Origin: a virus
Reading direction: 5' to 3' (one strand)
Length of the DNA stretch: 37,959 nucleotides
IMG/VR virus record: IMGVR_UViG_3300006104_000817
Location: 1 to 37,959 of that record
Shown here in pieces: positions 17,556 to 24,372 of the stretch (position 1 is the stretch's first letter; each line of letters opens with the position of its first letter). The position numbers were made by a program, and so were the translations under genes. The notes beneath the pieces were generated by a model. That model had not been told where the DNA came from and ran no database searches. It was given only the letters and a program-made list of their open reading frames with translations.

Positions 17556-17870
17556 ATGAAAATTCTAGCGTTTAAATTAATTACAGGTGAAGAAGTTCTT
17601 GCCGAAATCGAAACTGAATCCGAAACCGAATTTGTTCTTGTTAATCCAGTTGGCATTGCTGTTGTCCGTGATCCAAAAACTGGACAACCACAAGTTGGCT
17701 TCGCACCTTTTCCTATCCATGCTGAACAAAAAAGTGGATCTACCATTGTATTATCTAAGAAAATTGTGGTATATAATTATGTACCAGCCGAAGATTTTAT
17801 CACCAATTACAATTCTATCTTTGGAACAGGATTGATTGTTCCCCCTAAAAAACAAATCATCACCGGTTAA
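17556..17870 (+). CDS. conserved phage protein, possible LSm-like fold
   Basis: A 104-residue protein with FKLITGEEVLAEIE, FVLVNPVGIAVV and a later KKIVVYNYVP segment: five or so strands in the Sm-like order. It resembles the protein at 484 in its opening pattern and may be a distant paralogue. The start follows GAGG, and its stop overlaps the polymerase start by one base, placing it in the gene 43 operon. Function unknown; RNA binding would be inference. Confidence 0.75.
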   Translation: MKILAFKLITGEEVLAEIETESETEFVLVNPVGIAVVRDPKTGQPQVGFAPFPIHAEQKSGSTIVLSKKIVVYNYVPAEDFITNYNSIFGTGLIVPPKKQIITG

Positions 17871-19360
17871 TGGGCTTCTATACATCAGTCCAGTGCCTTG
17901 GTAATAATATTCTTTACCGAGGCGTAATAGATGGCAAGAGGGTTAAGGCAAGAATAAATTATTCACCTTCTCTCTTTGTGCCATCTAAGAATGTAACCAA
18001 CTTTACTTCACTCGATGGTATATACCTAGACCGGAAAGTCTTTGGTGACATCAGTGAAGCCCGTGATTACATCAAGCAATTTAAAGATGTTGATAATTCC
18101 CATAAGATATATGGAAATAACAGGTTTGAATATGCTTATATTGCTGATCAACATCAAGGTATGGTAGAATGGGACCAAGATAAGATTTTGATTGGTGTAA
18201 TTGATATTGAGGTTAGTTCGGAAAATGGATTTCCAAATCCTTATGATGCTAATGAGCCCATCACAGCAATTACTATTACATATCTCAATGGCGATACTTA
18301 TGCTTTTGGATGCGGTGATTACCAAGTTCAGAATAAAGAATTATATGTAAAGTGTAAAGATGAATATACTTTGTGTAAAAAATTCATGGAACTATGGAAA
18401 GCCAAGTGTCCTGATATTCTTACTGGATGGAATACAAAATTCTTTGATGTTCCTTATATCATAAACCGATTTAAAAAAATTCTAGGTGAAGATGAAGCAA
18501 AAAAATTATCTCCTTGGGGTCATATTTCCGAACGCCAAGCATTTGTATCTGGTAGACAGTTACTAGCATATGATATTCTAGGTGTATCATCACTTGATTA
18601 TATTGAACTATACAAATGGTATGCTCCATCAGGTAAATCACAAGAATCATATAAGTTAAATTCTATTGCCAATGTTGAACTCGGTGAAAGTAAATTATCG
18701 TTTGAAGAATATGATACACTGAATGAATTATATCGATTGAACTTTCAAAAATTTTTGGAATATAACATAAAAGATGTGGAACTCATTATAAAATTGGAAG
18801 ATAAGTTGAAGTTATTGGAATTAGCAATTACTTTAGCCTATGATACTAAATCTAATTATGATGATGTATTTGCTCAAACTAGAATGTGGGATGCATTAAC
18901 ATACTCTTATCTGTTAGAACGAAATATCATTGTACCACCTAAGATCACTAAAGATAAAGATGCTTCTTTTGAAGGTGCATATGTTAAAAGTCCTCAAGTA
19001 GGTAAACATGATTGGGTTGCTTCTTTCGATTTGGATTCTCTCTATCCTCATCTCCTGATGCAGTACAATGTAAGTCCAGAAACATTAATCCAACCAGAAA
19101 ATTATACGCAAGAAATGCTTGATATTCTTTCTTCTGGAATTTCTGTTGATAAGATGTTAAAAAAAGAAGTTGATACCTCCAAATTAGTAAATGCAACAAT
19201 CACACCTAACGGCCAATTTTTTAGAACAGATCATCAAGGATTTCTGCCCAAGATGATGGAAGAGATGTACCAAGATCGGAAGAAATTTAAGAATTTAATG
19301 CTTCAAGCAAAACAAGATTATGAAAATGTTTTAACGGAACTTGAAAAAAGAGGATTGTAA
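17870..19360 (+). CDS. 43: DNA polymerase gp43, N-terminal piece (exonuclease and first half of palm)
   Basis: Family B replicative polymerase, first part, 496 aa. Exonuclease motifs: DIE at 112-114, TGWNTKFFD at about 185-193, and YNIKDVE at about 298-304. Polymerase motif A is SFDLDSLYP at about 385-393. It ends at TAA 19358-19360 soon after KKFKNLMLQAKQDYE, in the fingers and before motif B, so it cannot polymerise alone. The remainder is encoded from 19401. Split polymerase genes (43A/43B) are known in some Aeromonas T4-like phages, where a homing endonuclease lies between the halves; here only about 40 nt separates them. Confidence 0.9.
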   Translation: MGFYTSVQCLGNNILYRGVIDGKRVKARINYSPSLFVPSKNVTNFTSLDGIYLDRKVFGDISEARDYIKQFKDVDNSHKIYGNNRFEYAYIADQHQGMVEWDQDKILIGVIDIEVSSENGFPNPYDANEPITAITITYLNGDTYAFGCGDYQVQNKELYVKCKDEYTLCKKFMELWKAKCPDILTGWNTKFFDVPYIINRFKKILGEDEAKKLSPWGHISERQAFVSGRQLLAYDILGVSSLDYIELYKWYAPSGKSQESYKLNSIANVELGESKLSFEEYDTLNELYRLNFQKFLEYNIKDVELIIKLEDKLKLLELAITLAYDTKSNYDDVFAQTRMWDALTYSYLLERNIIVPPKITKDKDASFEGAYVKSPQVGKHDWVASFDLDSLYPHLLMQYNVSPETLIQPENYTQEMLDILSSGISVDKMLKKEVDTSKLVNATITPNGQFFRTDHQGFLPKMMEEMYQDRKKFKNLMLQAKQDYENVLTELEKRGL

Positions 19361-19400
19361 AAGTTACCGATAATAAAATTAAAAAATAAAGGTGAATGTT

Positions 19401-20514
19401 TTGAAATTATTAAAAGATATGTCTGATTCAGAATTGATTGATTATAAACATGAACTGGAAAGGAGAGTTGCGAAATATGATAATTTGCAACTTGCGAAAA
19501 AGGTGTCACTTTAACTCCGCTTACGGCGCACTTGGCTCCCCATATTTTAGATTCTATGATTTAAGAATGGCACTTGCTGTTACATTGTCTGGTCAGTTCT
19601 CTATTCGTTGGATTGAGGCTAAGATTAATGAATACATGAATAAGTTATTAGGAACTGATGCAGATTATGTTATTGCTTCGGACACAGATTCAATTTATTT
19701 AAGACTTGGTGATTTAGTTAAGAAAATTTATAGTGATGATGTTTCTGTTATAATGAATCCTAATAAAATAATCGAATTCATGGACAAAGTGTGTGAAGAT
19801 AAAATTAAACCATATATCGATAAATCATTTCAAGAATTGGCTGACTATGTTCATGCTTATGACCAGAAGATGCGGATGAAACGAGAAGCATTGGCAGACA
19901 AAGGTATCTGGACTGCTAAGAAGCGTTATATTCTTAATGTGTACAACAATGAGGGTATTACATATAACGAACCACACATGAAAGTAATGGGTTTGGAAAT
20001 GATCAAATCTTCTACTCCTCAAGCAATTCGAGTTAAGATGTCGGAAGCTATTAAGTTAATGTTATCTGGAACTGAAGATGATATACATAAGTTTATTGTT
20101 GATTTTAAAGAAGAATTTAGTAAGTTGCCCGCGGAAGAGATTTCTTCACCTCGAGGACTCAACGGATTGAATAAATACTCTGATGCTGCTACCCTATTTA
20201 AGTTGGGAACACCAATTCATGTTAGGGGTGCTATACTTTACAATCAATTTTTAAAAGACAATAAACTCACTAAAAAATATCCACTCATACAAGAAGGCGA
20301 GAAAATCAAGTTTACTTACTTGAAGATGCCCAATCATTTGAAAAATAATGTAATATCATATCCATCTCGTCTACCAAAAGAATTTAAATTACAAGAATAT
20401 ATTGACTATGATATGCAGTTCTCTAAAGCGTTCATAGATCCTATTAAGATAATTTTAGATTGTATGGGATGGAAAATAGAAAAGATGAGTACACTGGATA
20501 CATTTTTTGGATGA
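19401..20514 (+). CDS. 43: DNA polymerase gp43, C-terminal piece with an apparent +1 frameshift
   Basis: Carries motif B (KKVSLNSAYGALGSP), motif C ASDTDSIYL and the thumb with AKKRYILNVYNNEG and MGLEMIKSSTP. The first frame begins at TTG 19401 behind AAGGTGA and reads LLKDMSDSELIDYKHELER and on to KKVSL, then meets TAA 19512. A +1 shift there gives NSAYGALG and an open frame to 20514. The start codon is uncertain (TTG 19401, ATG 19419 or GTG 19392). A start inside the body frame (ATG 19438) would lose the essential Lys of motif B. The two pieces must associate, as in other split family B enzymes. Confidence 0.85.
19500..19515 (+). other. prfB-like +1 frameshift site in gene 43
   Basis: AAGGTG, three bases (TCA), then CTT TAA C. 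The bacterial RF2 gene uses an internal Shine-Dalgarno, three bases, then CTT TGA C to shift +1. The spacing and slip codon are the same; the stop is TAA instead of TGA. Slipping CTT to TTT continues as AAC TCC GCT TAC, the N-S-A-Y of polymerase motif B. Confidence 0.65.
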
Positions 20515-21476: not shown

Positions 21477-22400
21477 ATGAGCATACTTGATAAGATTAAA
21501 AAGAACACAACGATTAAAGATTCTGCTATTCTGTCGCAATCAAAATTCTTTACCGAAAAGGATATGATTCAGACTTCAATTCCTATATTAAATGTGGCAT
21601 TATCTGGTCGATTCGATGGCGGTTTAACACCCGGTTTAACAATGTTTGCAGGTCCGTCAAAACATTTTAAGACAGCATTTTCATTAATGATGGCAAAAGC
21701 ATATTTGGACAAGTATGATGATGCCGCTTTGTTATTCTATGATACTGAATTTGGTTCACCGCAATCATATTTTGATTCATTTGGTATTGATACTGATCGT
21801 GTTCTTCATACACCTATTACCGATATTGAGCAATTGAAGTTTGATATTATGAAACAACTCCAAGATTTGGCTCGCGGAGAACATTTAATTATTATTGTTG
21901 ATTCGATCGGTAATCTGGCATCAAAAAAAGAAGTAGATGATGCACTTGATCAAAAGTCTGTTGGTGATATGTCCAGAGCAAAACAAATCAAATCATTGTT
22001 TAGAATGGTTACTCCACATTTAAATCTCAAAGATATTCCAATGGTTGTAGTAAATCATGTTTACATGGAAATAGGTATGTTTCCTAAAGCCATCGTTGGA
22101 GGCGGTTGTGTTGTTGAGGGCACCAAGATTCAAACACCTGATGGATTGACTGAAATTCAGAACTTCAGGATCGGCGACCAAGTTGTCCATAAATCTGGCC
22201 AAATTGAGGTTAGACATACATGGAATCCAGAAACACTCTACCATGGTTATCCTGAATGTTTTGAGGTTGAATTTGAAGATGGATACAAAGTTGTATGTTC
22301 AGATACACACAAATTTTTTATCGGTGATATATGGATAGAGGCAAAGGATTTAGTTTCTGGTATGGATGCGAAAATCGTATCTGTAGGACCGAGAAATTGA
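21477..22400 (+). CDS. uvsX: UvsX recombinase N-terminal extein fused to split N-intein
   Basis: RecA-like strand-exchange protein, first 210 residues, then an intein N-part. The extein has the P-loop region GLTMFAGPSKHFKTAF, the Walker B strand LIIIVDSIGNL and VVVNHVYMEIGMFPKAIVGGG. Cys211 opens the intein; typical block A (CVVEGTKIQTPDG) and block B (VVCSDTHKFF) follow, ending at TGA after SVGPRN. The C-terminal half is a separate gene from 22543, so active UvsX needs protein trans-splicing. AAGGTAATTT precedes the start. Confidence 0.92.
   Translation: MSILDKIKKNTTIKDSAILSQSKFFTEKDMIQTSIPILNVALSGRFDGGLTPGLTMFAGPSKHFKTAFSLMMAKAYLDKYDDAALLFYDTEFGSPQSYFDSFGIDTDRVLHTPITDIEQLKFDIMKQLQDLARGEHLIIIVDSIGNLASKKEVDDALDQKSVGDMSRAKQIKSLFRMVTPHLNLKDIPMVVVNHVYMEIGMFPKAIVGGGCVVEGTKIQTPDGLTEIQNFRIGDQVVHKSGQIEVRHTWNPETLYHGYPECFEVEFEDGYKVVCSDTHKFFIGDIWIEAKDLVSGMDAKIVSVGPRN
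22107..22397 (+). other. N-half of the UvsX split intein
   Basis: 97 residues from Cys1 with blocks A and B, a canonical split position near where endonuclease domains usually sit. Its last residues, AKIVSVGPRN, contain the same KIVSV that opens the C-half. Confidence 0.9.
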
Positions 22401-22546
22401 ATTTTGATAGTAACTTGTGGAAAAATCCAGCATCAATAAGCCAACGCAGGGATATTTGTGTTCATTGTGGTAAAGAGAGTGTTGCTGGCAATATCAGTCG
22501 TTGGCATAATGATAATTGCAAACAAAATAAAGGTGAAACTAAATGA
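22401..22546 (+). pseudogene. homing-endonuclease zinc-finger relic between the UvsX intein halves
   Basis: An open stretch in another frame, with no start of its own, encodes CVHCGKES..ISRWHNDNC: a C-x2-C-x12-H-x3-C zinc finger very like those in phage HNH and GIY-YIG homing endonucleases (CxHCGK..RWHxDNC). No nuclease catalytic domain remains. It ends overlapping the C-intein start and appears to be the remnant of the endonuclease that once joined or invaded the intein. Confidence 0.65.
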
Positions 22547-22659
22547 AAATAGTTAGTGTAAAAACGGTAGGTAGTAAACCCGTGTATGATATTTCTATTA
22601 AATCTGATGATTATGATGAACAATATTATGTGCTGGAAAATGGAGTAATGAGCCATAAC
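22543..22659 (+). other. C-half of the UvsX split intein
   Basis: 39 residues ending SHN, with Ser as the +1 extein nucleophile. It begins MKIVSV, repeating the KIVSV at the end of the N-half, although the bases differ at synonymous positions. Confidence 0.9.
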
Positions 22660-23067
22660 TCAGGAAGTTATTATTCCGCAGATAATATTTTCATTATTGG
22701 TAGGCAACAAGAAAAAGAGGGAACAGAAATTGTCGGCTATAATTTTATTATTAATATTGAAAAGAGTAGGTATGTTCGTGAGAAATCCAAAATACCTGTT
22801 ACCGTATCTTTTGATGGTGGTATTAGCAGGTGGTCTGGTTTACTTGACCTCGCTCTAGAGTCCGGACATGTTATTAAACCTACTAATGGATGGTACTCAA
22901 AAGTAGATAAAGAAACTGGTGAGATTGAAAATAAGAAATATCGGATTAAAGATACTGATACAAAAGAATTCTGGACTCCAATTCTAAATCAAGAATCTTT
23001 TACCAAGTTCGTTTCAGATAAGTATTCCGTATCAACAGAAAATATTATGGGGGTGCATGATGATTGA
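22543..23067 (+). CDS. uvsX: split C-intein fused to UvsX C-terminal extein
   Basis: Residues 1-39 are a C-intein with block F (KPVYDISIKSDD..YYVLENG) and block G (VMSHN followed by Ser40). The extein, residues 40-174, continues SGSYYSADNIFIIGRQQ and the rest of UvsX to the C-terminus. Ligation would give IVGGG-SGSYYSADN, matching uninterrupted UvsX, and a product of about 345 aa. AAAGGTGA upstream provides a ribosome-binding site. Confidence 0.92.
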   Translation: MKIVSVKTVGSKPVYDISIKSDDYDEQYYVLENGVMSHNSGSYYSADNIFIIGRQQEKEGTEIVGYNFIINIEKSRYVREKSKIPVTVSFDGGISRWSGLLDLALESGHVIKPTNGWYSKVDKETGEIENKKYRIKDTDTKEFWTPILNQESFTKFVSDKYSVSTENIMGVHDD

Positions 23068-23395: not shown

Positions 23396-23993
23396 AAAAG
23401 TATTACCATTTATAAAAACGGATTACTTTACCGAAAGGCATGAGAAAACACTATTTAATGAAATACAATCCTTCACGAATACTTACAATTCAACACCCAC
23501 GATTGAGGCGCTTAGTATTGCCGTCAAAGAAAAAAATAATCTTACAAATGACGAAGTACAGAAATGTGAAACTTATTTACAAGAAATTGAATCTAATAAA
23601 GAAACAAGTTCCGAGATTCAATGGCTTATTGACAAAACCGAAAGATTCTGCCAAGAGAAAGCGATTTATAATGCAGTATTGGGGTCTATTTCAATACTGG
23701 ACGGTAAGGACAAAGACCATGAGAAAGGTGCGATTCCCAAAATATTATCGGACGCTTTATCTGTAAGTTTTGATAATTCTGTGGGACATGATTATCTCCA
23801 GGATTCTGATAGTCGATATGAATTCTATCATCGGAAAGAAGAAAAGATTCCTTTTGATTTGGAATACTTTAATAAGATCACTAAAGGTGGCCTTCCCAAT
23901 AAAACACTTAATATCGCTTTGGCTGGTTGTGTTCATCCAGAAACTAAAGTTAAAATTAGGTATTGGAAACATACTGCCAGTTTGAGGTATTAA
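23337..23993 (+). CDS. 41: gp41 helicase N-terminal extein fused to a 21-residue split N-intein
   Basis: First 197 residues of the DnaB-type replicative helicase, with the N-terminal domain (EQTILKNLIYNEDYLRKVL) and the linker up to GGLPNKTLNIALAG. The intein starts at Cys198 (CVHPETKVKIRYW) and stops after only 21 residues. Splitting so close to block A is the atypical arrangement known from a few metagenomic phage inteins such as AceL-TerL. The break lies inside the Walker A loop, so neither half can bind ATP alone. The start is ATG 23337 or 23340. Confidence 0.9.
   Translation: MMKLEQTILKNLIYNEDYLRKVLPFIKTDYFTERHEKTLFNEIQSFTNTYNSTPTIEALSIAVKEKNNLTNDEVQKCETYLQEIESNKETSSEIQWLIDKTERFCQEKAIYNAVLGSISILDGKDKDHEKGAIPKILSDALSVSFDNSVGHDYLQDSDSRYEFYHRKEEKIPFDLEYFNKITKGGLPNKTLNIALAGCVHPETKVKIRYWKHTASLRY
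23928..23990 (+). other. ultra-short N-half of the gp41 split intein
   Basis: 21 residues covering block A only. GAGG within these codons serves as the ribosome-binding site of the downstream C-half. Confidence 0.88.
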
Positions 23994-23994
23994 A

Positions 23995-24372
23995 ATGAGT
24001 TTATTTGAAGAAAAAGTTGTAAATATTTCTGAAATAGAAGTATTATTAAATAATGGTTATTCTGTTGAAGTTGAATCTCCGGACGGATTTGTTCCCGTAT
24101 CAGCATTTGTTGATAAAGGAGACTGGCCAGAATACGTTCTAAGTACATCTAGCGGAAAAACAGTTAGGTGTAACTCTGACCATTTATTTGAAACCCCTTT
24201 CGGATGGAAAAAATCCGCAGCAATGGTGAATATATCTGACGCAAAGGTGCTGACTGCTGATGGATGGGAAGAGTGTTCCGTTATAAAAACGGAAAATAAA
24301 ATTCCTATTGTTGATATACAGGTAGAGCATAAGAACCATAGATATTATACCGAAGGAGTTTCTTCACATAAT
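23995..24372 (+). other. C-half of the gp41 split intein
   Basis: 126 residues ending SSHN with Thr as the +1 residue. No endonuclease domain is present between its splicing blocks. Confidence 0.88.

Follow-up and report, generated by a model that had tools for sequence, protein, structure and literature searches.

A split intein with a trimmed homing endonuclease in a viral uvsX gene, and the possible reversibility of intein splitting

Why would a viral recombinase gene be cut in two by a split intein whose halves flank an orphan zinc finger, and in which direction is such a locus moving? The question is raised by IMG/VR record IMGVR_UViG_3300006104_000817, a 37,959-nucleotide (nt) virus record with T4-like genes that was analysed over its whole length and is called the window here. 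Its uvsX gene spans positions 21477-23067 and is interrupted at GGG/SGSYYSAD (the slash marks the junction), where intein-free relatives read an uninterrupted GGG/TGSYYSAD. A preliminary description had seen in the locus a full intein caught in decay towards a split one. We consider it very probable that uvsX is a fractured gene carrying a class 1 HINT split intein, whose endonuclease has been trimmed to a tail kept for the start of the C-terminal half, and in which further trimming can fuse the halves.

The N-terminal open reading frame (ORF; 21477-22400) encodes UvsX residues 1-210, the N-terminal intein half (IntN, 97 residues, C211 to N307) and a TGA stop. After a gap of 142 nt, the C-terminal ORF (22543-23067) encodes the 39-residue C-terminal half (IntC) ending in HN, followed by a +1 Ser and the remainder of UvsX. 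The two halves and the gap noted in the preliminary description are thus confirmed by the ORFs and by intein profiles: NCBIfam intein_Nterm matches with E=8e-4 (20.3 bits, below its cut-off of 24.5) and intein_Cterm with E=1.1e-3 (19.2 bits, above its cut-off of 15.6), and the halves fused in silico match the gp41-1 intein (6qaz) with E=1.4e-7. The sequence motifs of a typically split class 1 intein are there, namely the Cys1 nucleophile (GGG/CVVEGT at 22107) and the block B His (CSDTHKF, with Ser replacing the usual Thr), both invariant in 14 aligned relatives, and the C-terminal His-Asn with its +1 Ser (VMSHN/SGSYY; HN/T in relatives). A contiguous relative, L004 (loci are given by such numbers throughout), was modelled with a predicted local distance difference test (pLDDT) score of 94.7 and is predicted to have the HINT fold, its best match being the gp41-1 intein (E=4.5e-9); this model is of the relative, built from an alignment of both window halves and IMG/VR rows only. 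No single ORF runs through the window intein, owing to the stop at 22398 and a change of frame, whereas one does in L004, L096 and L247. The intein evolves faster than its exteins (nonsynonymous divergence, pN, about 0.25 versus 0.12, with synonymous divergence, pS, near saturation), and we expect it to splice.

The content of the gap was identified with a profile built from 28 distinct HNH-type proteins of about 230 residues, all finger-ended, which occupy the same gap in relatives. This profile finds the zinc-finger frame of the window with E=4.3e-17 at model positions 177-229 of 230, while the next best of 998 window frames has E=1.3. Positions 22385-22531 translate to a sequence 49% identical to residues 179-227 of the endonuclease at L207, and the finger C-x2-C...RWH-x3-C of the HNH-NUMOD3-zinc-finger (HNH-NUMOD3-ZnF) enzymes is kept as CVHCGKESVAGNISRWHNDNC, none of its four zinc ligands (C-C-H-C) being lost. 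The window relic lacks the HNH and NUMOD3 domains that relatives have, no complete endonuclease ORF lies between the halves or in a second copy elsewhere in the record, and a Pfam and NCBIfam search of the relic gave no match. Taken together, the profile match and the homing-endonuclease assignment of the intact proteins identify the relic, at the level of sequence, as the C-terminal tail of an enzyme which related phages still carry whole, and the kinship proposed for the finger in the preliminary description is borne out. When positions are mapped on diverged relatives, the comparison by which the window junction was read, relic homology starts upstream of the N-half stop, and the present TGA would fall within endonuclease-derived DNA. 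Likewise, the window IntN is 5-6 residues longer than that of most relatives (91-92 residues), its extra tail SVGPRN occupying the position of their stop codon and spacer. Since the four ligands are kept and the divergence of the relic from intact fingers is within the range between intact enzymes, either the deletion happened recently or constraint on the frame persists.

The relatives show what the gap once held. A complete HNH-NUMOD3-ZnF endonuclease gene stands at exactly the same place in about 30 of them, and the split uvsX intein with an endonuclease between its halves is common, 57 distinct intact loci having been analysed. The search proposed in the preliminary description, for relatives keeping a whole endonuclease in this gap, is thereby positive, and the suggested likeness to fractured genes is upheld. 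The intact HNH-type enzymes match the PHROGs homing endonuclease family phrog_655 with E=1e-50 or better; NUMOD3 is above its cut-off (E=1e-8 to 3e-10) and HNH just below (E=1e-3 to 4e-3). The model of the L207 enzyme (predicted template modelling score, pTM, 0.48) gave weak HNH-domain matches only and no PDB match with E<0.5. HNH-NUMOD3-ZnF and GIY-YIG enzymes are found at one and the same uvsX spot. Cultured Straboviridae infecting Escherichia, Shigella, Salmonella, Klebsiella, Proteus, Yersinia, Pseudomonas, Shewanella and Vibrio have the three-gene layout too, mostly with GIY-YIG enzymes and annotated as RecA-like, homing endonuclease and RecA-like. For L190-L198, which belong to this cultured group, the two uvsX pieces stand in public records as independent proteins, labelled RecA-like, recombination or hypothetical; a split intein is named in none of the annotations examined for them, and one mentions a HintC domain. 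Intein DNA that is 100% identical occurs in uvsX backgrounds only 78.5% identical, which shows recent horizontal spread. A scan of genome contigs gave one weak match and nothing useful.

Between the intact and the contiguous state, more than ten deleted or damaged forms of the endonuclease occur at this site, all sparing both intein halves. The enzyme is broken by a stop in L006 and internally deleted in L008, L208, L244 and L219, where the finger or 3' end is kept; L244 and L251 form a near-identical pair (flanks 99.3-99.5%) differing by the deletion. Finger-only gaps measure 142 nt in the window, 138 in L085, 129 in L270, 115 in L090, 111 in L259 and 106 in L117, and gaps with only a tail or nothing recognisable measure 53 nt in L211, 52 in L099, L100 and L101, and 42 in L275. 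Inteins without any stop are contiguous, of 140 residues in L004, L005 and L096 and of 130 in L247 and L249. On a tree of IntN plus IntC, relic and contiguous states are scattered, with at least 13 state changes; with 119 columns and long branches this tree cannot place the window and served only to show the scatter. A variant is seen in L209 (2450-2960), where IntN continues into endonuclease finger codons (ending ...RWHNENCKHKME) as a chimeric IntN; the C-half is preceded there by another small frame.

Why, then, does a tail remain? In 34 of the 57 intact loci the endonuclease gene runs up to the C-half start, its stop overlapping that start or sitting within 6 nt of it, and a Shine-Dalgarno-like match precedes the C-half start in all 17 split loci checked, including every relic checked. 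With the ribosome-binding site and start of the C-half lying within the endonuclease 3' end, deletion of the tail would often silence the C-half of a needed recombinase. The relic therefore probably persists because it holds this ribosome-binding site. The overlap can reach several codons: in L117 (position 3030), L207 and L208 the C-half takes its start codon from within those of the finger, HNENCK becoming MKIA in another frame.

The direction of change is best read from the pair L096, contiguous, and L102, which is split and has a full endonuclease. The two are 100% identical in the intein halves and adjacent exteins, compared over 600 and 270 nt, and 98.5-99.9% identical in longer flanks, and L096 lacks exactly the endonuclease. 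Its fused junction, GAATAC/GAGGAAATT/ATG, consists of the last N-half codons, the C-half ribosome-binding site and the start codon of the split form, the latter two now being sense codons; in the split form AGGAAA codes for RK at the endonuclease C-terminus (CKKRKL in L102, CKRK in others). The start-site remnant is GAGGAAATTATG in L004 and L096 and GCATAATGAAAATT in L247, whose shorter scar (GCATAATG, as in the finger codons WHN) is consistent with the same polarity. A passage from split to contiguous is the simplest account; had an endonuclease instead entered a contiguous intein, it would have needed a stop and a Shine-Dalgarno-ATG pair placed there beforehand by chance.

Based on these findings, we propose the following course of events. 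Two ORFs, each an extein with half of a class 1 HINT intein, would be translated, and the halves would associate and trans-splice to yield intact UvsX. The spacer would formerly have held a complete, free-standing HNH-NUMOD3-ZnF homing endonuclease, by which the element moved from one uvsX allele to another. In the window lineage, a deletion may have taken the HNH and NUMOD3 domains together with the original N-half stop, leaving the zinc-finger codons and an N-half whose stop, a TGA, now comes from the DNA of the endonuclease. Retention of the 3' tail is probably due to the silencing of the UvsX C-half that its loss would bring, and further trimming of stop and spacer could fuse the halves into a contiguous mini-intein, as appears to have happened in two other lineages. 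To a broader proposal we give even chances: that intein splitting is reversible in nature, with the endonuclease controlling the exit. Holding the C-half start of an essential gene in most loci, it would not be cleanly deletable, and escape would come through trimming to a tail that bears the start site (window) or through an in-frame deletion that makes one gene (L004/L096, L247).

Several observations weigh against parts of this account. The Shine-Dalgarno match in the window is modest, at -4.3 kcal/mol; random window positions average -1.9 kcal/mol and 15% of them reach -4. The endonuclease ends short of the C-half start in 23 of the 57 intact loci, so the ribosome-binding-site argument is not universal; moreover, such a site needs only about 20 nt, and the argument explains why a tail is retained, not its exact length or a shared deletion endpoint. 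Five deletions do share an endpoint, immediately ahead of the finger's W-[VK]-N-P (scan-statistic p, post hoc, of about 0.0005-0.01, depending on the null). A possible cause is a short direct repeat, seen at two of the junctions (GATT in L085, TAGAA in L090). No near-identical relative of the window with a full endonuclease was found, and its breakpoints are consequently inferred from diverged homologues. Finally, the window intein branch is long (0.8 changes per column), which makes its splicing competence less certain than that of the relatives.

The shared endpoint bears on the strongest of the alternatives, in which the zinc-finger frame encodes a small functional DNA-binding protein, for example a uvsX regulator or a homing blocker, selected after loss of the nuclease. 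The five deletions stop at the edge of the finger module, and in the window relic the zinc ligands are intact and pN is well below pS in comparison with intact enzymes; a TTG start overlapping the N-half stop and an ATGA overlap with the C-half would permit coupled translation. However, pN/pS is alike among the intact enzymes themselves, and recent loss explains the window equally well. Moreover, the finger-only relics of L117 and L259 have no ATG, GTG or TTG start, that of L085 has only a GTG within the module, that of L090 is frameshifted, and a ligand is lost in L259 (Cys to Tyr) and L270 (His to Tyr). A finger protein is thus not generally kept, and although the window finger is itself intact and could be translated from TTG 22397, we think this explanation improbable.

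Still less probable is the direction favoured by the preliminary description, a contiguous intein in the window in the course of splitting. The general belief is that natural split inteins arose from contiguous ones (PMC12707363), and this must hold at some depth. At the uvsX site, however, the split already exists in all intact relatives, where the endonuclease has an ORF of its own; it is this enzyme that decays, and the contiguous forms are the further-decayed ones (L004/L096 and L247), two isolated tips of the tree that carry C-half start-site sequence. The uvsX data are compatible with contiguous ancestry at depth, yet show, as far as sequence comparison reaches, that splitting can be undone. 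A sequencing or assembly error that splits a single intein ORF deserves almost no weight: although the gp43 reading frame of the window is likewise discontinuous, that discontinuity is common to other phages too, the N-half, relic and C-half occupy three different frames, and L002, an independent IMG/VR contig, agrees with the window across 8,921 nt, showing 2 mismatches and no gaps. The two-ORF structure is therefore no artefact of assembly. Neither of the refuting conditions named in the preliminary description, reads that join the ORFs in frame or a relic unlike homing endonucleases, applies.

The pentapeptide KIVSV, described as ending the N-half and beginning the C-half as if the element had been joined or invaded there, is indeed present in both, while the relatives lend no support to a joining or invasion point. 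It is unique to the window phage among 66 distinct loci, the longest string shared between halves elsewhere being 2. The two copies agree in 11 of their 15 coding nucleotides and use different codons for Ser, TCT and AGT. These mismatches, the different Ser codon families and the absence of the match from the 65 other loci rule out a recent duplication or joining scar. We regard KIVSV as a coincidence between two beta-strand-like stretches, otherwise unexplained.

Split inteins are usually drawn as the endpoint of a one-way path from contiguous inteins. At the uvsX site, near-identical phage pairs trace stepwise loss of the endonuclease and a split intein able to turn contiguous. Polarity, the deletion constraint and the cost of being split are directly testable in T4-like phages, and an intein that nature offers in matching split and fused forms, its splicing residues the same in both, would be useful for intein engineering.

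The arrangement itself is known. In the fractured genes reportedly described by Dassa et al. in 2009, a split intein divides a gene into two ORFs and its halves flank an endonuclease ORF, the enzyme being said to belong to the EDxHD/Vsr-like family; the enzymes at the uvsX site are HNH-NUMOD3-ZnF or GIY-YIG, and the window has a tail only. The PolB of phage MIJ3 has a split intein with an HNH ORF, differing from the window in its host gene, polB, and in its intact endonuclease (PMC6892783). The closest solved structure, the gp41-1 split intein (PDB 6qaz), is typically split at the endonuclease site and alike in part sizes (IntN about 90-97 residues, IntC about 35-39), but it has only about 25% identity on the structural match and another host gene. 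In the homing cycle, fixation is followed by degeneration and deletion of the endonuclease, and a mini-intein is left (PMC8966425, PMC7765530); the uvsX endonuclease is instead free-standing between split halves, and its complete loss can therefore re-fuse the intein. In phage T4, the HNH homing endonuclease I-TevIII has lost its activity through a large deletion, and the splicing element that hosts it, a group I intron and not an intein, survives (PMC2988022). No paper naming both "split intein" and "uvsX" was found in the literature searched, which did not cover Dassa et al. 2009. As far as that literature shows, the decay series, the start-site overlap and the reversal from split to contiguous are new. 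The features of the locus are collected in Table 1.

Table 1. Positions of the uvsX intein, its exteins and the endonuclease relic in the window
Feature	Position	Strand	Basis or remark
UvsX N-extein, residues 1-210	21477..22106	+	phrog_97 UvsX-like recombinase E=2e-69; 81-86% identity to intein-free uvsX
IntN, 97 residues, Cys1	22107..22397	+	NCBIfam intein_Nterm; alignment with relatives
Homing-endonuclease relic WKNPASISQRRDICVHCGKESVAGNISRWHNDNCKQNK	22376..22531	+	frame homologous to last 53 residues of HNH-NUMOD3-ZnF enzymes
Open frame of relic, TTG 22397 to TGA 22544-22546	22397..22546	+	ATGA overlap with C-half start; translation putative
TGA stop of N-half ORF	22398..22400	+	overlaps TTG 22397, possible start of relic frame
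Putative Shine-Dalgarno sequence AAAGGTGA of C-half	22529..22536	+	6 nt from ATG, in relic 3' end; duplex energy -4.3 kcal/mol
IntC, 39 residues, ends ...VMSHN	22543..22659	+	4-residue insert versus usual 35 residues
UvsX C-extein, +1 Ser, and stop	22660..23067	+	T4_UVSX_C PF21134 E=2.5e-20; phrog_97

Two further genes of the window are broken. The gp43 DNA polymerase (17870-20514) has at 19492-19526 a candidate programmed +1 frameshift site at the PolB NSAYG motif, CAACTTGCGAAAAAGGTGTC(A/T)CTTTAACTC, where a +1 slip would restore ...LAKKVSL/NSAYGALG. We take the site to resemble that of Escherichia coli release factor 2 (RF2): a Shine-Dalgarno-like AAGGTG, 3 nt, CTT, a stop and C. This block, about 30 nt long, has stayed conserved in 6 distinct phages despite diverged flanks (the site is also present in L006, L283, L284, L285, L289 and L290), and the gene is an unbroken single ORF in 59 relatives. 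About 40 codons upstream, gp43 is also split by a short untranslated stretch, 43A ending at 19360 and 43B opening near 19392, and most other contigs with the frameshift site have stops at this place, where covered. Aeromonas phages 25 and 44RR are reported to have a 43A/43B arrangement like this upstream split (PMC2988022). The gp41 helicase gene carries an atypically split intein (23928-24372), with an IntN of 21 residues ending at 23990 and an IntC of 126 residues from the ATG at 23995; one nucleotide only lies between stop and next start, and IntC matches VidaL (6vgv) with E=1.4e-12. With uvsX, gp43 and gp41, three replication and recombination genes are thus broken within about 8 kb.
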